NCBI RefSeq assembly: GCF_024713975.1
Contig: NC_091098.1
Span: 23,224,316 to 23,288,315, forward strand
Length of the DNA: 64,000 nt
Reading direction: 5' to 3'
Source: Paralichthys olivaceus
Lineage: Eukaryota; Chordata; Actinopteri; Pleuronectiformes; Paralichthyidae
This document shows, in pieces, positions 14,175-58,691 of the stretch. The notes below the pieces were generated by a model that was given only the letters and a program-made list of their open reading frames with translations, was not told the DNA's origin and searched no databases. The position numbers were made by a program, and so were the translations under genes. Every line of letters begins with the position of its first letter. The stretch's first letter is position 1.

Positions 14175-17100
14175 TCAGTTCTGCTGCAGGATCAGGTTTT
14201 CCAGCTCGTCTGCTGAGCGGAGGAGGAAGGCTGCGGACTCCCGGTAGCCGGCGATGAGCTGCCTCACCGCCGTGACCTCCGGAGGGCTGAGCTGGGCCGA
14301 AGCTCCGCCTCCGCCACCACCCTGACCATGACTGTTGGAGCTGGAGGAGGAGTTTGGGCCGACGGACTTCATACTCAGATCTGTGGGACCTGTGGACACA
14401 AAACACAAGTCGTTTTCAGACATGAACAAGTTGACATCTTCATCTTCTACGTGTATGGATGACTCCTCTTTCTCATCTGGAGATATTTGTATTCTTTTTA
14501 TTTCAGTTTTGTGTCTGTCGTGTGTTAGAAAAGTCTGGACGTGTACAAGCTCCTCACCATTGGTCTGTGCAGCTCCAGAGTTCTGCTGGTTGCTGCCGAC
14601 CGTCCCGTATCCTCGCAGGTTGTAGTTGAGGCCTCCGTTGGTGTAGAGCTGGTCCTGGGCGAAAGCTGCGCTGGAAATGGAAAACGCTGTCGGGGCCACA
14701 GGGGCCGAGTCCCTCGAGTTGGACTTGTCACCGGAGGCTGGCTCATCCTACGAGACATTAGATAGTTTGAATGCCGAGCAGAATATTGGGGTTTATGTTG
14801 TGCAGTTGCAAACTCAATGATATGTTTCCATCTGTGTTTGTGTGTTAGTCAGAAGGTTTACGCTTTGTGGAGGGGTGGAGGATAACCCAAGGAACAACCC
14901 GTTAAATTTTAGACTGGATCCGGATAAATGGGCAGATCCAGGATTGTTTTCTACTTTCTTTAACATGGCGAGATGGGCTTTATCCTTGGTGGAGGCATGT
15001 TCTCTCTGAGTGCCCTTCTAGTTTTAAAAAATCATGTTGGAAAAGGCTCAACCAACCTGTTATAAAATCCTTTCTCTGAAACTTGATTTTTATATTTTAT
15101 TGAGTCTCATCATACACCCTATTTTTTGCTGCCACTCTATTTGTATTTTCAATTTGCCAATGCCGCCACTGGACTCAATCTTTTCCCTCAGACCTTCGTG
15201 TGGCTCAGAAATGGCTGCTGATGGTCCCTCGATAGCAACGTTTGCAATCTCTATTTTTCACAGATCACCACCTCGGTTCAGAAAGCTCCATCTTTGGAGC
15301 TTCTCTGGGACTGTGGCCGGCGGGTCAGATTGATATGGCTCAGGACCACGATGGTGCTCCACCACACTAATGAAGGCTTCAGGGGATTCTGGAGAGCTCC
15401 ACCTCTACACAGCCCTCTGGCAGAGGTGCCTTGTGATTCTGTGCTGCTCCAGATTTCTCTCTGGTCTGAGAATATAACCGAGCAACTCCCGCCTCACATT
15501 TCCATCCCCCTCTCTCAGCTCCCTGCCCAATTCTGTTTTGTTTTTTTAGCATTTTTCAAAATTATGAACTGGGCGGAGTAGAGCTCGGAGCTGGGGGGGG
15601 GGGGGTGAAGTTATGCTTTAATGATCCATGGCCATTCCAGTGCATTCCCAAATCCCTGCTGGGCAGATTCACAAACACCAACTGCCAAGACATTTACCGT
15701 CGCCTGGTAGACATCGAGCCGCATCCTCTTGGCAGCATTTCGGGTTTCGCTCTCACAGGCAGCGGCGAGGATGTTCTCAGCCATGGCAGAGGTGAGGTGA
15801 GGAGGTGTTGGTCGGATCTGGCAGCAGGAGGCAGTGAGATTTTTGCACTTTATAAATGTCACTGATTTCAGAGTGTGTTTTTCATTCATACAGACAATAT
15901 TTTATATGGGGGGGGGGGTTTGTACCTCAAAACCGCCTTTTTTCATTCGGCGACAGGATTTGAGGTAGGTGCGGATGCGCTTGCGGGAGCGCTCCTGGAA
16001 CTCTGGGAACTGGCGGCTACAGGATTCGATGATGGCCTGGATCTTCTCCTTGGGCTGTTTGGAGATGGGCACCATGCGGTCCAGATTCTCGTCCACGAAC
16101 AGACGCACAAACATCTGACAGAGACAGAGAGTGGGGGGGAGGGGGAAGAGGAGAGGATGTAGAGCAGAAAAATGGAGTGGGGGTGCAGGGTGGGGAGAGA
16201 GGGGTGTGAGAGTTGAAAACAAAAGAGAGGAAAGGAAAGGCAGGGGATGGGGGAGCATTAGAGGTAGAGAGGATAAAGAGGGAGGGGGAGGTGATGAAAA
16301 CAGGAGCCGTGAAAATGGAGTCACTGCTCATACGCAGGACGATATTTCTACTCCCAGCTTATTCACTCATGGCTGCATTTTTTAAACTCACATGCTCCTA
16401 TATTTCCATTAGACTGAAAAAAAAATATTTGTTTTCAGAGAATAAACTGAATATTTGACGACACTGACTTTGGATGAGAGTTTTTTTTTTCTCATCTTTA
16501 ATATTTATATGTATAATATCTCCACATAAACACTGTAATTCAAGAAGAGGGCAGAGCCACAGAGATCAGACAAGTACTGAGTTGTAGTCACTGTGTATAA
16601 ATGTAATTATACTACATCAGTGAGACAGGATACTTACATTGAAAGCTTTAAGTCTCTCAGGGTCCATACCCTCAGCATCATTAATCTTGTCGCTGTCATC
16701 GTGGTCGTCATGATCATCGTCGTCATCATCGATTATCTGTGCCCGGCCAGAGGTCAAGTCCTCAGCACTCATGCTCAGTTCAGTCTTCACGGAGTCATAG
16801 CTTCCTGAGCTGTACGGAGGAGACTGGAAAGACCCAGAGTCAAACAAAAATATTCTTATTATACAGACCATTTGCTTTTAGACGAGCAACAAGGAAATCT
16901 GTGTATTTGCGATCATCAATTATCAGATCAAGTTTGTGCACTCACCTTGTTGGTGTACTCTGTTTTGACGGGGTACTTCCTGTTGGGGTCTGCGGAGTAG
17001 GGGTTTGTCGGCGAGCACCCCACAGGCAGCAGGCTGTCGCTCAGATTGACCGGCTGCTGATCCTCTGAGGAGGAAGAGGACGAGGTGGTGCTGAAGTCAA

Positions 17101-33037: not shown

Positions 33038-33841
33038 TACATACAGCATCGCCACACCGGACAACACGAGACCGTATAACGGCACGGTGTCTCAAACACA
33101 CAAAATAATACCCTGTTATCTACATGCTTTACACCCTGACAGGACTTCACCCTCACCGGGGACACATGCGATGATGCAGCCCATACCTTTTACCATTTGC
33201 GATAGCCAGGAGGCACCGGCGTTGCTATGGCAGCAAGGGATGAGACGTAGGGGCTGTTCTGGTTGGGATGTGGACAAAGTGAATCTTTATCTGGGGAAGA
33301 CGAGGGCGAGCCGGGACGATAAAACACCACAAGTTTGTCATTTTATTCACATGACAGGCGCATGTGTGTGTATGTGTGTGTGCAGCCTGAAATAATGACA
33401 ACTTATATAGGCGGCAACGGGACATCTCGTGCACACACATACACACACACACAGAGAGACACACACATGCACACACACACACACACACACACACTTTACC
33501 GTTGACTTGACCGGCACATATAGGACGGGTTTCCCTGGAGCCCCTTTCTTGTTGTGCTCTCCCAGGACGTTGGTCCCGACCTGAAATCCTTTCGACTTCA
33601 CCCAAAATTTGAATTTGGCGTTGATGTGGCTGTTGTCGACGTACACGCCGTCCGACTCGTCGCTCTGCAACAGTGTCTGCATGATTTTGTTGTATTTTCG
33701 CCGGGTGACGGTCTTTGTTTTACCGGAGTCCCCATAAGTCCGGAGACACCAGTCCTGAAATTCACTGAACATCTCCGCCTCCAACACGACCGGACTCCGG
33801 CTCCTCTTGGGCGCATCCACGCACGCCTTTTTCGTTGCCAT
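14175..33841 (-). CDS. nol4l: Nucleolar protein 4-like (long isoform)
   Basis: Eleven coding exons on the minus strand: 33841-33500, 24435-24280, 22361-22250, 20670-20561, 18145-18004, 17238-16946, 16823-16638, 16114-15926, 15817-15698, 14747-14558 and 14389-14175. All have GT-AG borders and join in frame to 684 aa; human NOL4L long form is about 680. Exon 1 starts [13 protein letters not shown] and holds the conserved N-terminal fold. Exon 2 has [16 protein letters not shown] and exon 3 has [19 protein letters not shown], both family signatures. Then come Ser/Pro-rich linkers, an acidic run (six consecutive D, then HDDHDD) and a basic [18 protein letters not shown] segment that may act as a nuclear signal. 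[24 protein letters not shown] follows, and the C-terminus is [23 protein letters not shown]. The biochemical role is poorly known; the human gene is a leukaemia fusion partner (RUNX1, PAX5). Assignment to the a or b copy is not possible here. Confidence 0.96.
14748..15697 (-). other. nol4l: nol4l intron between coding exons 9 and 10
   Basis: Intron bounded by GT at 15697 and AG at 14748 on the minus strand. It contains repeat family A copy 1 and a 12-base or longer poly-G run near 15594-15606. No exon is seen inside it. Confidence 0.8.
14836..15012 (+). mobile_element. Dispersed repeat family A, copy 1 (fragment)
   Basis: Within a nol4l intron. It shares phrases with copies at 31075, 38308, 42290 (inverted) and 52888 (inverted): AGAACCCATTAAATTTT-like, CGGATCCAG/ATTTCTTTCACTTTCTTTAACATTG-like, then GAGTGCCxTTxTAG. 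I recognise the family as very common in percomorph genomes but cannot give it a reliable class name. Confidence 0.7.
18146..20560 (-). other. nol4l: nol4l intron between coding exons 4 and 5
   Basis: About 2.4 kb with no recognised coding sequence. It contains short CA-rich stretches (19540-19575) and AT-rich DNA. The short open frames here lack family motifs. Confidence 0.7.
23480..23700 (-). mobile_element. Dispersed teleost repeat (fragment)
   Basis: It contains ATCGCCACCTGGTGGCTGG followed by CTGCAGTATAGGTCATAAGT. I recall this phrase as widespread in percomorph genomes, usually written in the opposite orientation. It lies in the nol4l intron between coding exons 2 and 3. The ends are approximate and there is no second copy in the window, so the call rests on memory of the motif. 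Confidence 0.4.
25917..26040 (+). mobile_element. Partial copy of the GGGCTGCAAC-type MITE
   Basis: It starts AGGGTTGCAACTTTACATAATTTTCTCAATTAACTGATCAATCATTTGGTCC-like, matching in order the 5' end of the fuller copy at 60358-61212: gggctgcaac, then ATTA/ATTAAT-rich sequence, then a TTTGGTC-type phrase. The other end is missing. Confidence 0.5.
26288..26626. mobile_element. Teleost MITE with about 28-bp imperfect terminal inverted repeats
   Basis: The left end (AAGGTTTAGTGCGTAAGATT...) and the inverted right end (AAGTCCAGTATGTAGGATTT...) align over about 28 bp with a few mismatches. The length is about 340 bp, with internal phrases on a lethal-sounding CDS-free backbone (GAGGAAACGCTCCTGATGTA, TATAAAAGGCTC). 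It carries no transposase. I recall the same element as common in many fish genomes. Confidence 0.75.
27161..27218. repeat. (CA)n microsatellite with CAGA interruptions
   Basis: A CACACA run broken three times by CAGACA. Confidence 0.9.
27267..27327 (+). repeat. (GGA)n microsatellite
   Basis: About 60 bp of GGA units with a few AGA substitutions. In one frame it would encode poly-Glu, but there is no exon context. Confidence 0.95.
27520..27550. repeat. (TG)n microsatellite
   Basis: An uninterrupted TG run of about 30 bp in nol4l intron 1. Confidence 0.95.
28251..28290. repeat. (TG)n microsatellite
   Basis: A pure TG run of 40 bp preceded by a CT-rich stretch. Confidence 0.95.
29225..29645 (-). 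mobile_element. GGGCTGCAAC-type MITE, degraded copy
   Basis: It ends with GGTGCAGCCCTCC, the inverted terminal signature shared with the copy that ends at 61212. Inside are ATTAAT/GATTAA-rich blocks, CCAGAAAATATTC and CAGAGAATGTTTAAATTATT-like phrases typical of this element. The other terminus is eroded. Confidence 0.6.
31075..31445 (+). mobile_element. Dispersed repeat family A, copy 2 (two fragments in tandem)
   Basis: A 3' fragment (GACATTTATAAGTGCAATTTGGTGCAG) is followed by a 5'-to-3' copy: CTTGGTGGAAGGATG, AGAGAAGAACCCATT, CACTGTCTTTAACATT, GATATCTATGAG, AATGTGGTTTCATTGGGGGAC, then GGCGGGGGTATGCG. The order matches the copy at 38308. Confidence 0.75.
33001..33045. repeat. (CA)n/(CATA)n microsatellite
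   Basis: A CA run of about 32 bp followed by ACATACATACATACA. Confidence 0.95.
33430..33495. repeat. (CA)n microsatellite next to the nol4l exon 1 donor
   Basis: A CA-rich run that ends four bases from the GT of the nol4l exon 1 donor (33499-33498 on the minus strand). The intron therefore opens GTAAAGTGTGTGTGTG. Confidence 0.9.
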
Positions 33842-34260
33842 CGCTCCCCCTCTCGCGCTCTCTCTCTCTCTCTCTTTCTGTGTGTGTGTGTGTGAGCCCG
33901 TTCAAACAGCCCTGGCTAATAAAGAAACACACTTGAACGGGTCGGTTTTTTCCTCCTCTGGTCCCCGCTCTGTCCCGCGTCCTGAAGGCTTGGATGTGGT
34001 GGTGGTGGTGGTGTTTTTTGGGGGGGGACGGCGCAGCCTCCCGGTGGTTTCCCGGCAGCAGAAGTGACCCGGACAGCAGCACACCTGTTTGCAGAGGAGG
34101 AGCAGTGCTGTCCCGACCCGCAGCGGTGAAAAAATGTCACTTCCTCACATCATCCGCTGAGGAGCAGAGAGAGGGGGGCTGTCCTATGCTGAGCGGGTAT
34201 CTCCCACCTGTGCGTAAAACCCTCTCCACCGACAGAAAGAAAACCACAGTCCTCGCTTAA
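33842..34260 (-). promoter_or_regulatory. nol4l: Putative 5' UTR/promoter of nol4l
   Basis: GC-rich with several CpGs upstream of the nol4l ATG, including CT-rich and CA runs (33856-33895) that would lie in the 5' UTR. No TATA box is clear. The start site cannot be placed. Confidence 0.4.
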
Positions 34261-48734: not shown

Positions 48735-49782
48735 ATGGCAACGGCACTGATTTTGACTCCAAGCTACTCCCATGATAAATCCAGCCGCTTTCAGTTGGTG
48801 TCATGGTTCAACCACCTGCTCAAAACAGACTTCAAAGATGTGCGAGAGATGGGTTCAGGTGATGCATCAGTATGAACTAATGGAATTCTTTCTATATGCC
48901 TGCGTTAGTACACTTTAATCATGCACAGCTGCTACAAGCCATAAGTACATGGGTTTTGGGACCTGGACTTTTTTGTGGAAAGTTATGATGCCAGCAGAAA
49001 AGAGCCAGTGTGAGCTGTTAAGATCAGGTGTTGTGCGCCATGTCTCTGTTTTAACACTTTCTGAACCGTCGTCATATGTGTACGTTTCTACAGGAGCATG
49101 CCACTGTCAGATGCTGGACTGGGTTATTCGTGGCTCTGTTGACATGAAGAAGGTGAAGTTTGATGCACAGGGTGAGGATGAATATCAGCACAACTTCAGT
49201 CTGCTTCATGAGGCATTCAGAAAGAGCGGTATCACCAAGGTATGCACATTTTCTCAAGTTAAATAGCATTACAGTTTCTTTTTTTCTTCAACCTGTTATG
49301 TAACTTTTGTCAACACAGAAATGAGAAGCTTCAAAATGTGAACATATGTTTTTGCATGTGTTTGTGTATTATACTGTGTATTAGCCGTGATATTATTTTA
49401 TACAATGAAAATGTAGTCAGGTGCAGAGACCTCCTGGAGTCTCAATTGGTCTGGTAACCAAACAGTGACCTGTGTATATGACCTAGTGAACTATGACCCT
49501 AGAAAGTCACTGTTCCTTTATTAAACTAGCTCAGTGAAGACAATGATTTGTTGTTATATTGTATTATATACAAGTTTTTTAAATGTTTACAAGTCTTCTT
49601 TGTCCTGTTTTAGCTCGTTCCAGTTATGGATCTCATAAAAGGGGATCTTAAAGGCAACATTGAGATCCTGAAGTGGTTCAAAGCTCTTTACACAGCAAAT
49701 GTAAATATATGTAAAGAATACGACCCTGTGAAAGCCCGGGACAGCCAGGATATCAGCCCAATTGTTGCATCTCGACCCTCAC
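48735..49782 (+). other. dnmt3bb: Exons encoding an EB1/MAPRE-type calponin-homology domain
   Basis: Three exons encode residues 1-146. The fold resembles microtubule end-binding proteins rather than actinin-type CH domains. Markers are [76 protein letters not shown] and [11 protein letters not shown], which parallel the EB1 series CSGAAYCQ, KKVKF, EYxxNF, WFKKF and YDPVAAR. The splice junctions fall inside GSG|AC (phase 1) and after ITK (phase 0). I believe EB1 genes are interrupted at the same two places, which would mean the exons were captured intact. Zebrafish Dnmt3 proteins with an N-terminal CH domain are known. Confidence 0.88.
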
Positions 49783-52700
49783 GTAAATAAAACTTTTAAT
49801 TTTTTTTCACTGTGTCAATGAAATATGGTAAAGTTTTGATTATAGAATTTACAGCGCTTGTGTAATAATGATGTTTCTCTTACTTTGTCAGTGAGCCTTG
49901 GATTGGAATCAGACAAAGAAGAGAAAGACACTGACATATATAAGAAGTTCCCATACAAAGAAGAGTGGAAGACCATGTTTGACTGGGCTGAACTGAGTAG
50001 TCTTGGAGAGCAATATACCTACTGCAGCACATGTGCTAGAAACCTCAAAACATTTACTAAAGGCTATTTAGAACTTCGGCGTCACATGGAGACAAGCACA
50101 CACAAGAAACGGGAAGGAATTTCCAAGAGTGCCTGCCGGCAAAGCCAGCACTCTGAACTGCTGCCCTGCAGTGATGCAGCGATCCGCTTTATTCACAGAC
50201 ACTGTTATAATGGCTCAGCCAAAGGTGAACAGGCATCTATACGCTTTGCACGCAGCAAGCTGGGGCTGCAGTACCCCAAAGATATTACATCTGTTTGCCA
50301 GCACACTCCTTACTGTGTGTACATTTACGGAGGGGTAACAGCTGGAAAGGATGAAACCGCCTCTGTGGTCCTTGTTGGATTCTTTGACGTAGAAGCCTCC
50401 AGGCACTGCATCCGGTTTCTGGATGCTCTTCAGCCAGAGAATGGTGCAAAAGATCAAACAGCCGCAGCAGTGGGGGAGACCTTAAAGAAATTTATGTTAC
50501 CCACAGATAACCTTGTTGCTGTTTACCTCGATGGTAATGGTGTGGCCTCAGAGCAGATCTGCTCACAGCTAAGGGAACTCAACCCGAACATAGCGGTCTT
50601 TGGAGGGCTGTACAGCATCAGTGATGCTGCTTGCCAGGCTGGAGTTAAGCAGCTCTCCAATCAGACTCAAGAGCTGATGGCAGACATTTATGCCCACTAC
50701 TCCTCCTCTTCTAAGAAAGAGGATAACCTCAAGGCTCTCTTTGGCTCTATCTCCGTGGACTCTCCATCATTTTATATCAACGACTGCTGCCTTAACTTTT
50801 GCCTTTTAGTCACGAAAATGTTGGAAAAATGGACAGATCTTATATCGTACTTTAGCTCTTGTGACAAGGATGATGAGAAAGCCAAGTTAATCTGCTCCCG
50901 GCTGCAGGATCACAAAGTGAGGGCAACATTTATGTTTCTGGAACAGGCCTTAAAGCCGCTGCACAATTTCCAAATGCATCTGCAGACATCGGAAGGAGCT
51001 GCTCGGGCTGATTTGCTGCTCATTCTAGAAGAAGCCAGTAACCTGCTGAGCACCTACACCTCCTACTTCCTTCACCCTCAAGCTGCTGCTCGCTTCCTCA
51101 AGGAGCATGATGACCAAATCCTCAAGAAGAAGACATTCCACCTGTCAAGCCCTGAACTCAGTCTGGGTGGAAAAGCTGTTGAAGATTTCCTAAATGAGTC
51201 TGAGTCTGTAGAGGCACTCACACTGTTAACAGAAGAGGCGTTGTCTTTCTACATCGCACTGACTGGCTGTATTGCGGAGAAGCTGCCTCTAAATGATGGG
51301 TTTCTAAGGAGCATAGCTCAGCTGTTGAATCCCCAGAGCAGGCAGAAAGTGACACGAACAGCAGTCAGGGAGCTTGGGACCAAGCTGGGAATCTGCAGTT
51401 CCCCTGAAGAGGTCAACCAGCTCACGAGTGAATTCCTTCACTATCAGCTGGCTGAGGAGGGAGAGGAGAACCACTCAGCAGAGGTTTCACTGGAGAAACA
51501 CTGGGCCGGGATACTGGGGGACAGCAAGCAGACAGTTTTCAGGAGGCTTGTTTTGACCCTATTGTCTCTTCCCTGTCCACCACTGGATGCTCAGTGTGTT
51601 TTTACTCAGGTAAGTAAATGCTACAGCTCCATCATCATCTTTGGTCTGTGTTAAGTTTTTGCTTGTTTAGCAAATTTTGTGCATGTGCTGTATTTCCTGT
51701 CGCAGGCCTTAGATAATGGAGACACTGCTCGGATCTCCGAGAACGAAGTCTCAACAGAAAGCAAGTGTGAGGCGAAATCCGACAGCACCGTGAAAAAATA
51801 CAGTAAAGGTAAGAAGAACAACAGTTCATCGATCTTAACAAGTTAAATTTGTACCTAACTTAATCAAATAATCTGATAAATAACAAACCTTGCATTAGAT
51901 GTTGACAATGATTTATATGATGTGCACATTAATGAGGAAAATACTTGTATAAGAAGCCACTGCATTTGATGATTTGATGTTATTTAATCTTTTATTTTAT
52001 TTTATAGAAGTGAATGGTCATATTATTGGAGTGAAGCAATGTGAAGTCCGCCTCACAAAGATAAATAGTAAGATTTTCTTTTAAATTTTGTAATCTTTTT
52101 GTTTTGTGGCTTGGTGGCTGTCGTTCCCCACATTTTTAGTTCCAACCTGTCATAACATAATAATCACCTGTCTAAAGCAAAGCACTTTCTGCTTCCTTCC
52201 AAAGATCTAAACGAAGAATGTGATGATAAACCTGGAGAGAATGGCATCTTGAAAGAGGTGACAGGATTTTATCTCTGCCCTTCTTTTGCATTTCAGTCTC
52301 ATACATTTACGTTGAAAAGAAGCAACTTGTTGCTAAGTTGCTTTTGTAAAGTGAATTCACCACTTTTCAGTCACTCTCATCTTCTCCATTCTTTCATTGG
52401 TATGATTAAGATGAAGGTGTGTGTGAGTGTTTTGGGGTATATCTGCATGTGCATGAGATTTGAGTGTGTAATGAGAGTGTGTTGTCTCTCAGGGGGCCGG
52501 TAGGGGAAGTTTTGGCTGTGGGAGCAGCTTGCGCCAGAAGCCACAGGCCCGTGCAGTGTTTCAAGCTGGTGCTAGCACCTGGTCCAAACCTGTAGATCTT
52601 GATAAGGACAGCAAAAATGGTCTGGAGTCCCAAGATGAGGTGGTAGGTATACTGAAGTATACTACCAGAGCACCTTTAACGGGTCTCTTTACCCTCTGAA

Positions 52701-55700
52701 ATAATGATAGATTTGACAAAATAAATATTTGCTGGTTTACCCAACATATGACCATCCTGCACAAAGAGAAATAAAGGCATCTGACTACATGGTGGCAGAC
52801 AGGGCTAAAGCTAATATTATATCTAATCTGTCGAGATTCAGCTTCAACAATTTCAGATAACAAACACTACCAGAGTGGACCTCTGGCATGAAACCACATT
52901 TGAATTCCCCCGATTTTTATTTAGATCTGCACCAACTGTCAGGTAGTCAGAAATATCAGTCCCTCAAACAAGCCTGATTTTTAAAATCAAGATCCATGAA
53001 TTATTCTCTGAGATATCAACTAAAATATCTCACAAATTTCATTCCACCGTTTCGTGTTAATCAGTTTTCGCGTAACCTGATAACCTTGGCAGAGGTAGTA
53101 AATAGCAACAGTAAAGTCCAAATAAAATCCAAAGAATAATAAAATTGGCACATACATGTAAAAGAATTTGAAAATTATCTTTTACTGCAAATCCACATGT
53201 GCAGCACATACGTGTTGCTGAAGCATCCATCTGTTTATCAGGTAACTTGAAAAGACTTGAAAAACGCATTGAATTTATTTTCCACTTAAAGGTTGTGGAA
53301 GAGAATTCAGTCCTACATCTAACAAACCTCCATCTCATTGTTTGCTTTGTTCAGTTGGTGCTAAGTCTCTTTTTAAACTCATCCTCACAAGCACAATGCT
53401 GCACTGAAGTCCGTTCAAAGTAGAGCATTTGAAACTACAGTGAAGTTTTTTGTTTGTTTTGAACAAAGTAAATTTTGAAATCTTAACCCAAATGAATGCC
53501 CCCCCCTCGCATCTTCGTTTTAACAAATTAACTCCTCCACGTCATCTGAAATTACATATCAACAACAACAATAGCAATGTTTTTAATCCCTTTTTACCTT
53601 TGACAGCTGTTTATTCTAAATGTGGTTTACTTTCAGCCAAAAGAGTCACCGCCATCCAGTAAATCCACGCCAAGAGGACGAAGGAAGCACGTTTACCAGG
53701 TAAAAAACTGTTACAGGAAAAAGTTGGCTCTAACATCATGTCATAGAAAATATCTTTTTTTATCTTCCTTTATCTTCCTTTAAGAGGAAGATGCAATTTT
53801 AAATAATGTCTGTTTTTCCTTTTGTTTTTGACATCTGCAGGATGGGAAAGGGTTTCTGGCAGGAGAGCTGGTGTGGGGGAAAGTGAAGGGGTTTTCCTGG
53901 TGGCCTGGGTTGGTGACACCCTGGAAAACCAAGTCCGCTCCCTCTGGCATGCGGAGGGTGGAGTGGTTTGGAGACGGGATGTTCTCAGAGGTTAGAAATA
54001 CAGTGCATGTGTCGTAGCTGGAGAAACATGCGTGGAGTTGGATTCTTAAGTCTTCATTGCTTTCTGTTGCAGATCTACACAGAGGGTCTACTGGCATTCA
54101 ATAATTTCACTAAGTGCTTCTGTAAAAATTCCTTCGCCAGCTTGCCCCTCTACAAAGCAGCCATCTTCCAAATCATAGAGGTAGGAGAGCAAAACATTTT
54201 GTCCCACATGCTGTTCTTCAGATTTGATTTCCTCCCCCTGCACATCTTCATTTGATTTTTTTTTTTCTTGCTCACCAATTGAATTACCCCTCATGACACT
54301 GATTCTGTAGTTTGTTCTTCAAACGATTGTTTCATCAACTCAGAGTAGAAGATGAAGTCAGTTCTCATCAATACACACATCATTAGTCAGAGTGATTATT
54401 TCTACCATTTCTTTCATATTTGTGGTGAAAATGATTCCATCTCTTTTCTCTCTGCGGGGATTTTTAATCAGTCGACTGTGAAGAGGTTTGACGTGGATGT
54501 TTGTTATAATGATGTTCTGAACATTTAAAGGTGCTGTACATGTTTTGGCTATTGCAACATTAGCATCAACAGCTGTTTACTTAGCAAATTAGCAAGAAAA
54601 TTAAGCACTGACCTTCGCTCCTTAATTCACCTAGAGCCGTCTCCATCAGTAAAAACCAATATGCCAACAATAGCTCTCTAGTTTAAGTTTCTATATATTT
54701 TTACTTTATTGAAATTAGCATGCTAACAAAGCAGCCTGACTCTCCATGTCACTTTCCGATTGATAGATTCACCACCACCAGCAAGAAACCACAGAGAATA
54801 CTTAAATATAAAATATTCAATTCAATATCATCCCCCTTTTTTCCATTATTCTATCTGTTTCCATAAATTCAATCCAACATATATTTGACTTATTTTACTG
54901 TTCGCGTCAGCAGCCATTTGATTATTTAATGGTTTTAACCAGGATGAAATCAGAAGGTTTTCCGAAGACGACCAAATGATTAATAACTGTTTCACCAGCA
55001 TTTCAGAGTCTGTTCACATCTGTATTCTGCAGTTGGCAGGTGAGCGATGTGGGAAGTCTTTTGCTGAGGCTGAAGGAGATAAAGACAAAGAGCTGAAGTT
55101 GATGCTGAACTGGGCTTTTGAAGGATTTCTGCCTTCGGGACCAGACGGATTCTTACCTCCTGGTATGAACACATTATAAACCCATCAACAAAAAAAACAT
55201 TGTCCTCTAAAGAAATGATGCTTCATAAAATATTTTTAATCTTAAATTCATCAGGGAGGGGAGATTTGAAAGAAGACAGTACATAATATATCTTGCCAAG
55301 TTCTCTTCATGATGAGTTTTACAGTTTTGTAAGAAACGAAAGAAACAAGGCTGGTTAAGTGTTGCTGGTTAAGTGTTGCTGTAAAAAGATGCGTCTTTAA
55401 AACTTGTTTCCTTTTTTTTCTTTAAGATTCTGCTGCACATGCTGAGACTTCTGACTCTGCCCAGTCCGACTTCCAGCCCCCAGCAAAAAGGAAATACGTT
55501 TTTAAAAATAAGGCGAATGCAGTCGCCATCACTTATAACAGAGGTACGTATTATACGTGTCCACAAACAGAACAGAAAGTGTGAGGACACATTTAGTGAA
55601 TCCAGGTGATTCAGATATTCTCATGTTATTATCATCATCATTTGTTTCCTATGTGTGATGTTGTTATATATTACTTTACAGAACTGATAACAGAAAAGGT

Positions 55701-58691
55701 CAAGGAAAAGGGAATAACCATTGAAGGTACGTTTTGAGTGAGAGTGCGGAAGAAGTTTGTGATTCTCTGATGCTTAGTTAAATCTCTCAATTCTAAAGGA
55801 ACTGGCTTGTTATTTCAGATCTTTGTTTGTCTTGTGGATCATCTGACATTGAAGTTTCTCACCCACTGTTTCAAGGTGGTCTTTGTCATAAATGCAAGGT
55901 AATCTAACAACCCCAACGCTCTATTTCTGTCTACCTCGGTGTGGTTTGCTTTACTCCATTCCAGCCCAGTTTGTAAATGTGTAACCTCCATCCAAAAACA
56001 CGGCTGCCATTAACATCCCAAATGCTGCAAAACAACATTGTCGCTGTTTGTAGGAGAACTTCACAGAGACACTGTATCGCTACGATGAAGATGGCTACCA
56101 GTCGTACTGCACCGTGTGCTGTGCTGGGCTCGAGGTCATTTTGTGTGGGATTGCCAGCTGCTGCAGGTAAGACAACTCTTGTCGCTGCTGTGAGCAATTT
56201 ACATTTACAGAGAAGGGATCCATATGCTCCACGGTCTCTGGACTAAATGTGTAAATGTGGGAGGGGACTACTAATATTCATTAATTTCTTATTCTCATGT
56301 TTGTTATCTGTTGTTTTCTGTGTCTCCCAGATGTTTCTGTAAGGACTGTCTTGAAATCCTGGTGGGCCCGGGAACTTTTGACAAGCTGAAAGATGTCGAT
56401 CCCTGGAGCTGCTTCATGTGTCAGCCGTCACAGTGCAAAGGAAACCTCAAGCTCAGGCCAGACTGGAGCGTTAAGGTTCAAGACTTCTTTGCCAACAACA
56501 GCGCCATGGAGTTTGTACGTGCCGCACTCGCTCCACACTACAGTTCACATGATGCACAGTTCAGCATAACATCTACACAATATGTACTGCCAGCACTGAC
56601 TGAAATACTTGCAGTGTGATCATCCATGAGTTATCTGTATATTGGATACACCTATCAGCATTTAGGTCACATCTGGGTTCTTGTTCTTTGTGCTGCTGTT
56701 TAATTGCTTTTCATGATTTACTGTTTTAAAATAAAAAAACAAACACATGGACTGCTCAGTTACAAAGCTTTACTACTCTAAATATTCTACTATTGAAAAG
56801 GACAAATAATTATAGGTGTGTAGTGTTTCTTGCTGTGTATGCTGTTAAAAACCTAATTGTCGTAGTGGTGCTGAAAGTTGTTCACTTTTTAATCACAGGA
56901 GCCTCACAGAGTGTATCCCTCCATCCCTGCTGATCAGCGCAGACCAATCAAGGTGCTCTCACTGTTTGACGGCATTGCAACAGGTTGGTTCATCATGTTG
57001 TACTTTACTTTAAAATAAAAGATACAGTCTTTGTAGTGTTTTGTTCATACGTACTACTGAAGAGTGCTGGAGTTAATGTTTAATTTGAAAAAAGTAGTGA
57101 AGTTTATTGTGCATAAAATGTGTTAATTCTTTTACCATGTGACCTGGTTTTAACGTCTGCGGCATCGTGACAGGTTACCTGGTGCTCAGAGATCTGGGCG
57201 TCAAGATGGAGCGCTACATTGCTGCAGAGATTTGTGAGGATTCAATCGCTGTGGGGATGATCAAGCATCAGGGAAAGATCGAATATGTCAATGATGTTCG
57301 CACCATCACAAGGAAACATGTGAGTACAAACTCCAGTAAGATAACTTGTGTAGTTTGTGTAATCAAACTTCTCACCAAGAGGCTAAACAACATAGAGAAA
57401 TATGAACTGAAGCTCTGGGGTTGTGTGTTGCAGCTGGCTGAATGGGGTCCATTTGATCTTCTGATTGGAGGCAGTCCATGTAACGACCTGTCAATGGTTA
57501 ACCCTCTTCGAAAAGGATTATTTGGTATGAAGCTTCCACACTTCTCAAATCAGAGTCACGATAAAATACTGGAGAACATAATGTCACTGTAGGTTTCAGC
57601 CTCTACACGCGTGCACTCTTCATCTTTACTAACACTCTCTGTTTATATCTGTTTGTCCTGCAGAGGGCACTGGACGGCTCTTCTTTGAGTTTTACCGCAT
57701 TCTGACCATGTTGAAGCCGAAGGAAGGCGACGACCGTCCGTTCTTCTGGTTGTTTGAGAATGTGGTTTTCATGAGTGCCAACGACAAATCAGACATTTGC
57801 AGATTCCTCGAGGTTAGCTCATATCTGATTGTTAGTTGTTGATTCAATGACAGGAATTAGGCTACATTGAATTTTACTGATCATTGTTTGAGGGCTTCCT
57901 TTTGTTTTTGCAGTGTAATCCCATTCTCATCGATGCAGTGAAAGTCAGTCCTGCTCACAGAGCACGCTACTTCTGGGGAAACCTCCCTGGCATGAACAGG
58001 TACAAACTGAGTCATATTCCTTTTTCATGCGGGTTCTCACTCTGAAAAGAAAAACTCCTTCCTTAAAAAATTGTGTCGGCTTTACATACCCGTTTGCATT
58101 TGTCTTCAGGCCTCTCGCTACATCTCTAGATCACAAAGTGGCTCTCCAGGATTGTTTGGAAATGGGACGCACGGCAAAGGTAGGAGCATAACGTTTGCTG
58201 TGTTGCTGACAGATGAGAACGTGAGGTTCTGTAGCAAACACGGTCATGAAAGGGCTTTAAAAAAGTATTTCATTTAAAATGAACTGGTCGTCTCTTCCTG
58301 CAGTTCGACAAAGTCCGCACTATCACCACAAAGTCTAACTCCATAAGGCAGGGGAAGATGGGACCGCTTCCTGTCAGCATGAATGGAAAAGAGGACTACC
58401 TGTGGTGCACTGAAATGGAACAGTACGTACTTTTCAAATCAGCATGCTGTTGTAAATATATTGTTTCTCGATGATGAATAGAGAACAAAATCGGTGGAGT
58501 TATTTTTCTACACATAACATTTAATAATTTGATGTTTTGTAAATTTCAGGATCTTTGGATTCCCCAAACATTACACGGATGTGAACAACATGGGTCGGAT
58601 GCAGAGGCAGAAAGTCCTGGGTCGCTCCTGGAGTGTCCCCGTCATCCGCCACCTGTTCGCTCCACTGAAGGATTATTTTGAATGTGAATAA
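48735..58691 (+). CDS. dnmt3bb: DNA (cytosine-5)-methyltransferase 3B-type with CH domain and hAT-like module
   Basis: De novo CpG methyltransferase acting on chromatin in the nucleus. Coding exons: 48735-48858, 49094-49239, 49614-49782, 49892-51609, 51706-51808, 52008-52067, 52205-52257, 52493-52642, 53637-53699, 53841-53990, 54073-54180, 55033-55162, 55427-55543, 55682-55726, 55819-55898, 56054-56166, 56331-56514, 56899-56983, 57174-57319, 57434-57524, 57664-57812, 57914-57999, 58110-58179, 58304-58422, 58550-58691. All are GT-AG and sum to 4401 nt, 1466 aa. Domains: EB1-type CH about 1-135; hAT-derived exon 147-719; a DNMT3B-like [14 protein letters not shown] linker about 806; PWWP 863-948; ADD about 1031-1171; methyltransferase 1172-1466 with FDGIATG, PCN (Cys1264) and FENV (Glu1310). 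The C-terminus is DYFECE. Human DNMT3B is about 853 aa, so roughly 600 residues are extra. No frame break is seen. The gene is dnmt3b-like; which teleost paralogue number applies is uncertain. Confidence 0.96.
49892..51609 (+). other. dnmt3bb: Giant exon encoding a domesticated hAT-transposase-like module
   Basis: One 1,718-bp exon codes for residues 147-719 without introns or stops, unlike the 45-190-bp exons of the rest of the gene. Residues 172-220 form a finger (Cys191, Cys194, His211, His217) after [10 protein letters not shown], as in the WLxxFPWL-C..C-H..H finger of KIAA1586/ZNF862-type hAT proteins. Residues about 287-397 follow the hAT RNase-H-like order: a beta strand (YIYGGVT where an active enzyme has a D-E-S-T motif), [10 protein letters not shown] (GxGTDGA position, Asp360 kept), then [18 protein letters not shown] where CxxH-LAL is expected. 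Residues 684-719 (W, then [15 protein letters not shown], then FTQ) match the C-terminal hAT dimerisation segment. Two key catalytic positions seem lost, so transposition activity is unlikely. The family assignment is by eye and needs a profile search. Confidence 0.75.
52888..53103 (-). mobile_element. Dispersed repeat family A, copy 5 (inverted, intronic)
   Basis: In the dnmt3b intron before the exon at 53637. The reverse complement gives CCTCTGCCAAGG, AAACGGTGGAATGAAATTTG, GAATAATTCATGGATCTTGAT, GCAGATCTAAATAAAAATC and AAATGTGGTTTCATG in the family order. Confidence 0.65.
53841..54180 (+). other. dnmt3bb: PWWP domain exons of dnmt3b
   Basis: Two exons encode residues 863-948: [16 protein letters not shown], then [13 protein letters not shown] and a Cys-containing helix region ([22 protein letters not shown]). 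In DNMT3 enzymes this domain reads H3K36 methylation and contacts DNA. The aromatic core SWWPG and the WFGDG strand are intact, so function is expected. Confidence 0.93.
55682..56514 (+). other. dnmt3bb: ADD (ATRX-DNMT3-DNMT3L) zinc-finger exons of dnmt3b
   Basis: Four exons encode residues about 1031-1171. They supply the GATA-like and PHD-like Cys pairs: [50 protein letters not shown] and [11 protein letters not shown]. The order matches DNMT3 ADD domains that read unmodified H3K4. All expected Cys pairs are present. Confidence 0.93.
56899..58691 (+). other. dnmt3bb: Cytosine-C5 methyltransferase catalytic exons of dnmt3b
   Basis: Eight exons encode residues 1172-1466. Motif I is FDGIATG (1194-1200, cofactor loop) and motif II region is [12 protein letters not shown]. 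Motif IV is GGSPCNDLS with nucleophile Cys1264, motif VI is FENVV with Glu1310, and [14 protein letters not shown] follows. The target-recognition part [15 protein letters not shown] and the terminal [20 protein letters not shown] are typical of DNMT3. All catalytic residues visible to me are present, so the enzyme should be active. Confidence 0.96.

Follow-up and report, generated by a model that had tools for sequence, protein, structure and literature searches.

Exon 4 of a flounder dnmt3b gene

The 64,000-nucleotide stretch of the Paralichthys olivaceus genome analyzed here (NC_091098.1, positions 23,224,316 to 23,288,315; hereafter the window) carries a dnmt3b gene on its plus strand, the fourth exon of which (49892..51609) encodes residues 147-719, a domain with the modelled fold of a hAT transposase. 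The gene product has the hallmarks of the DNMT3 family, namely a PWWP domain (exons 10-11, approximately 53841..54180), an ADD domain (exons 14-17, approximately 55682..56514) and a methyltransferase domain (exons 18-25, 56899..58691) whose PCN and ENV motifs read SPCNDLS and ENVV and which runs to the terminal stop. These assignments follow the gene model and the precomputed Pfam entries of the public P. olivaceus protein P0002 (PF00855 for PWWP, PF17980 and PF21255 for ADD, PF00145 for the methyltransferase). Exons 1-3 (48735-48858, 49094-49239 and 49614-49782) encode residues 1-146, which an initial annotation of this DNA had called an EB1-like CH domain. A phmmer search with the window protein bore this out, matching EB3 and EB1 chains (best EB3 chain E, E 2.8e-31), and the CH part of the model of a related protein, P0164, also agrees with the MAPRE CH domain by fold.

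Exon 4 is 1,718 bp long and is bordered by a TGTCAG acceptor and a GTAAGT donor, both consensus splice sites. Translation of the frame 49894-51609 gives 572 full codons without a stop, or 573 residues once the codon split at the acceptor is counted. Joining all 25 exons, whose ends were picked by eye and afterwards checked by script, produces 4,401 nt encoding 1,466 residues with a single terminal stop. P0002 (1,468 aa) scored 100% across exon 4; when compared at full length with the gene model it differs by T296R, in exon 4, and by two added residues, MK, after residue 791. An ATGAAG at 52411-52416, lying between AG and GT, is a candidate 6-nt microexon that would explain the MK, and a search for this motif in 244 protein records matched P0002 only. 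Since a gene predictor would hardly invent a 6-nt microexon, we infer that P0002 is based on complementary DNA. Two further proteins, P0103 (1,465 aa encoded by a 6,528-nt contig) and P0164 (797 aa encoded by a 2,857-nt contig, with the CH part and the exon in a single frame), look like assembled transcripts and lend indirect support to the splicing. The open frame, splice sites, gene model and P0002 together confirm the intronless, stop-free exon of the initial annotation, and the gene model and the public protein place transposase and host parts in one spliced reading frame. The exon had also been placed between the CH and PWWP domains; it does lie there in frame, but does not adjoin the PWWP domain, as five linker exons (exons 5-9, 51706..53699) intervene. 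Many of the corresponding genes in related fishes bear the name dnmt3b 'duplicate a' (dnmt3ba).

Fold, motifs and catalytic positions of the exon 4 domain

Structure comparison of the predicted models of the flounder exon and of P0164 matched Hermes, a hAT transposase, over the core, the helical insertion and the C-terminal segment (PDB entries 4d1q, 6dww, 6dwz, 8edg, 8sjd and 2bw3). On these models the domain shows the RNase-H-like core, all-helical insertion and C-terminal helix of the hAT superfamily. The RNase-H-like N-terminal half (approximately 50311..50613) runs three strands, helix, strand (followed by D360), helix and short strand. Its predicted local distance difference test score (pLDDT) is mostly below 50 in the flounder exon model; in the P0164 model most 10-residue blocks exceed 85. 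The helical insertion (approximately 50614..51489) is present in both models and is spanned by the Hermes alignment of P0164.

A second line of evidence comes from the C-terminal segment (residues 694-719, 51532..51609), which is of the LSxPxSSAxxERxFS kind. It was compared with Hermes 552-583, PKLSKLALSLLSIPASSAASERTFSLAGNIIT, in which residue 572 is Glu; the pairing is Hermes LSLLSIPASSAASERTFS with P0164 LTLLALPCPPLSAERVFA. The best ungapped placement of the Hermes fragment fell at the exon C-terminus in all 16 family members tested. Although the shuffle test is post hoc, the fragment having been chosen for its likeness, its score against the family profile was reached in none of 20,000 column shuffles. 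Against the flounder's own sequence, in which the segment is degenerate, the score was reached in 21 of 2,000.

Sequence searches weigh against a hAT origin. No hAT family was found in Pfam with the exon, 11 members, 11 further proteins, or a consensus and two pieces, nor in NCBIfam with three proteins. PDB sequence searches with the exon or its profiles returned no match or chance rows only and no hAT protein, and the C-terminal segment went unmatched in the PDB search with the family profile. A curated hAT profile match, which would support but does not define a hAT protein, is thus lacking. Pfam zf-BED appeared weakly (E 0.022) in one of the 11 members, with the CCHH ligands kept. Despite this absence of any Pfam, NCBIfam or PDB sequence match, the modelled fold and the C-terminal motif favor the origin first put forward in the initial annotation, and we consider it almost certain that exon 4 originates from a hAT transposase.

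The catalytic triad of Hermes we take to be D180, D248 and E572 (the roles and the first two numbers are assumed). The Hermes alignment, made by VIA, gives ranges only, and the catalytic positions were assigned from these ranges and from motifs rather than residue by residue. The 244 records compared include isoforms and fragments, some of which lie outside the alignment at given positions. Position 292, placed near Asp180 by alignment range and possibly off by a few residues, is acidic in none of 242 aligned records, in keeping with the loss of catalysis proposed earlier. Residue 360, likely the second Asp of the triad, is Asp in 143 of 244 records, Ser in 30 and Glu in 30. At residue 714, the Glu572 position, Gln (as in flounder) occurs in 190 of 240 aligned records and Glu in 10, for example in milkfish, characins, electric eel and P0164; the initial annotation had missed this surviving minority. 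A complete hAT triad was not found. The reported replacement of the CxxH motif at FGGLY (383-387) was likewise seen in an alignment of 46 sequences, the window and 45 homologues hand-chosen from 243 records, with Cys at 384 in one of 46 and His at 384-387 in none.

The CCHH zinc finger (50023..50103) behaves differently. In the 46-sequence alignment C191, C194 and H211 are kept in 45 (Lampris is gapped) and H217 in all 46; among the wider records the counts are 224/224 for C191 and C194, 229/230 for H211 and 233/235 for H217. These ligands, D360 and the segment W684-Q719 all sit where the initial annotation had put them. Because the triad is degraded while the finger ligands are near-invariant, exon 4 is classified here as a hAT-derived domain rather than a hAT transposase.

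Distribution, conservation and alternative explanations

Among the matches listed for the exon (120 of 165), the named rows are teleosts, most of them annotated as DNA methyltransferase. Among those listed for P0164 (120 of 235), the nearest named match is Osmerus (72%), and this query adds Osmerus, Salvelinus, Coregonus, Oncorhynchus, Hucho, Salmo, Esox and Lampris, as well as Chanos, Salminus, Electrophorus, Prochilodus and Astyanax. The matches listed for the two queries include neither zebrafish nor gar, nor the paralogue dnmt3bb.2. The occurrence of the exon in both Otomorpha and Euteleostei indicates, at the level of sequence, that it predates their split, and supports the earlier proposal that it was exonized and kept. 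After so long a time, terminal inverted repeats and an 8-bp target duplication, as found with hAT elements, would not be expected to persist. Given the relationships of milkfish, characins and zebrafish, the presence of the exon in the first two means that zebrafish is expected to carry it unless it was lost.

Trees of the exon, the PWWP-to-end part and the CH part were built from 24 of the 46 aligned sequences and rooted on Otomorpha. The main groups are concordant across the three, and salmonids and pike group together with support of 0.996, 1.0 and 0.998, respectively. The catalytic-half tree differs from the exon tree in where it puts killifishes and some deep acanthomorph branches. Mean identities to the window were calculated over ten proteins from the P0164 query (nine for the finger and the methyltransferase). 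They are 0.43 for the CH domain, 0.74 for PWWP, 0.76 for ADD and 0.89 for the methyltransferase, 0.29, 0.37 and 0.57 for linkers 1-3, and 0.52, 0.57 and 0.60 for the non-finger segments of the exon, with 0.30 for its finger segment. Most of the finger is missing from the one Lampris prediction.

The better conservation of the insertion (0.57) and C-terminal (0.60) segments relative to the finger could mean that the domain serves multimerization or protein contacts only, hAT-type DNA binding having been lost. We regard this as a real but lesser possibility, since the four finger ligands stay near-invariant amid changing surroundings. Somewhat less probable is a donor that was not a mobile element but a hAT-like host gene, domesticated before it was copied into dnmt3b. 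A profile search for free hAT relatives yielded 80 proteins, none with an E value above 3e-124. Names are attached to four: P0004 and P0199, DNA methyltransferases; P0073, a hypothetical protein that has CH and PWWP domains; and P0156, uncharacterized. The other 76 are nameless, so that membership of dnmt3b is not claimed for each. That no mobile relative was recognized in this search would fit a domesticated donor, as would the putative likeness to KIAA1586/ZNF862 pointed out in the initial annotation, but no host-gene relative was recognized either, and the containment of the whole transposase-like region in one intronless exon is what a transposon frame would be expected to give.

It is very unlikely that the exon is a decaying passenger without function, even though its catalytic positions are lost, the trees show it evolving faster than the catalytic half, and no more than 11 columns are invariant in an 81-row alignment. 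Among 37 rows, mostly acanthomorph, 42 columns are invariant. Predicted proteins from both Otomorpha and Euteleostei keep the exon open, which only leans the same way, as such predictions are open by construction. Its length, moreover, is 2 mod 3, and it begins in phase 1 while exon 5 begins in phase 0, so that transcripts starting with the CH domain cannot skip it without a frameshift. That the likeness to Hermes merely reflects a common RNase-H fold from some other nuclease or ATPase family we consider extremely improbable.

Two predicted relatives have unusual architectures. P0004, a 982-aa predicted dnmt3b isoform of Xyrichtys novacula, repeats a stretch from the helical part of the exon about six times in tandem, through either a repeat expansion or an error of assembly or prediction. 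One predicted isoform from Salmo trutta, P0237, has an extra PF13358 domain, which we take to be a DDE endonuclease family and which is possibly a read-in transposon copy.

Elsewhere in the window, minus-strand open frames at 14175-14747 and 33347-33901 look to us like nol4-like exons. Their appearance agrees with the nol4la-dnmt3bba gene order given in available passages of a published study (PMC6976628). The text available from three papers already places a CH domain in teleost Dnmt3b copies (PMC5320511, PMC6976628, PMC5513168), and passages of one report mapre1b adjoining dnmt3b genes (PMC6976628). Because the CH part is of the EB1/MAPRE type, it may derive from fusion with this neighboring gene.

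Proposed role and comparison with known systems

Our favored explanation is that a nearly full-length hAT reading frame, from the finger through the RNase-H-like core and helical insertion to the C-terminal segment, was turned into a single exon of a dnmt3b copy, between its EB1-type CH and PWWP domains. This would have happened before Otomorpha and Euteleostei parted, and the exon was then kept. From fold and conservation, we infer a module that no longer cuts DNA and that would bind DNA and probably multimerize, steering the methyltransferase to particular repeats. A hAT origin combined with some retained non-catalytic role is highly probable; whether the exon directs the methyltransferase to its targets is evenly balanced. 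The zebrafish orthologue Dnmt3ba is reported to methylate TGCT sites in mosaic satellite repeats (PMC7978034, which cites Ross et al. 2020). Such a choice of target could, we suggest, be explained by a DNA-binding domain captured from a transposase. More tentatively, the exon might act as an address label of Dnmt3ba: by binding specific repeat sequences, which may formerly have been the termini of its own transposon family, it would create the unusual TGCT methylation of satellite repeats. A transposon-derived, probably DNA-binding domain inside the enzyme offers an answer, directly testable in zebrafish, to how de novo DNA methyltransferases select repeats. If true, a vertebrate DNA methyltransferase would have acquired its targeting module from a transposase, and a genome-defense enzyme would be equipped with part of the type of parasite it may keep in check.

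The PWWP, ADD and methyltransferase domains of the flounder protein are those of tetrapod Dnmt3b, in which we know of no hAT-type exon. Mammalian Dnmt3b is described as having no CH domain in accessible passages of one paper (PMC5320511), and a 2026 review, in the parts available, gives dnmt3ba only PWWP, ADD and methyltransferase domains (PMC13205079). While transposase-host fusion is a known kind of event, no description of the hAT-dnmt3b case was found in a literature search that left subscription papers and Ross et al. 2020 outside its reach, so that an earlier mention is possible.

Relative to Hermes, the exon shares the modelled fold over core, insertion and C-terminal segment, but its first Asp position is never acidic, its Glu is mostly Gln and it is embedded in a methyltransferase. 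SETMAR, the primate-specific fusion of a histone methyltransferase to a mariner transposase, resembles the flounder protein in joining a chromatin methyltransferase to a transposase, and its transposase chain (3f2k) was among the structure matches of the P0164 model. It differs in its transposase superfamily, in modifying histones rather than DNA, and in its restriction to primates. Host-transposase fusions of tetrapods are, like SETMAR, a known kind, and they represent host reuse of hAT DNA-binding parts. CGGBP-type hAT domestications do the same, according to available passages of their description (PMC8097297). Unlike these tetrapod fusions and domestications, the flounder protein retains almost all of the transposase and joins it to a DNA methyltransferase.
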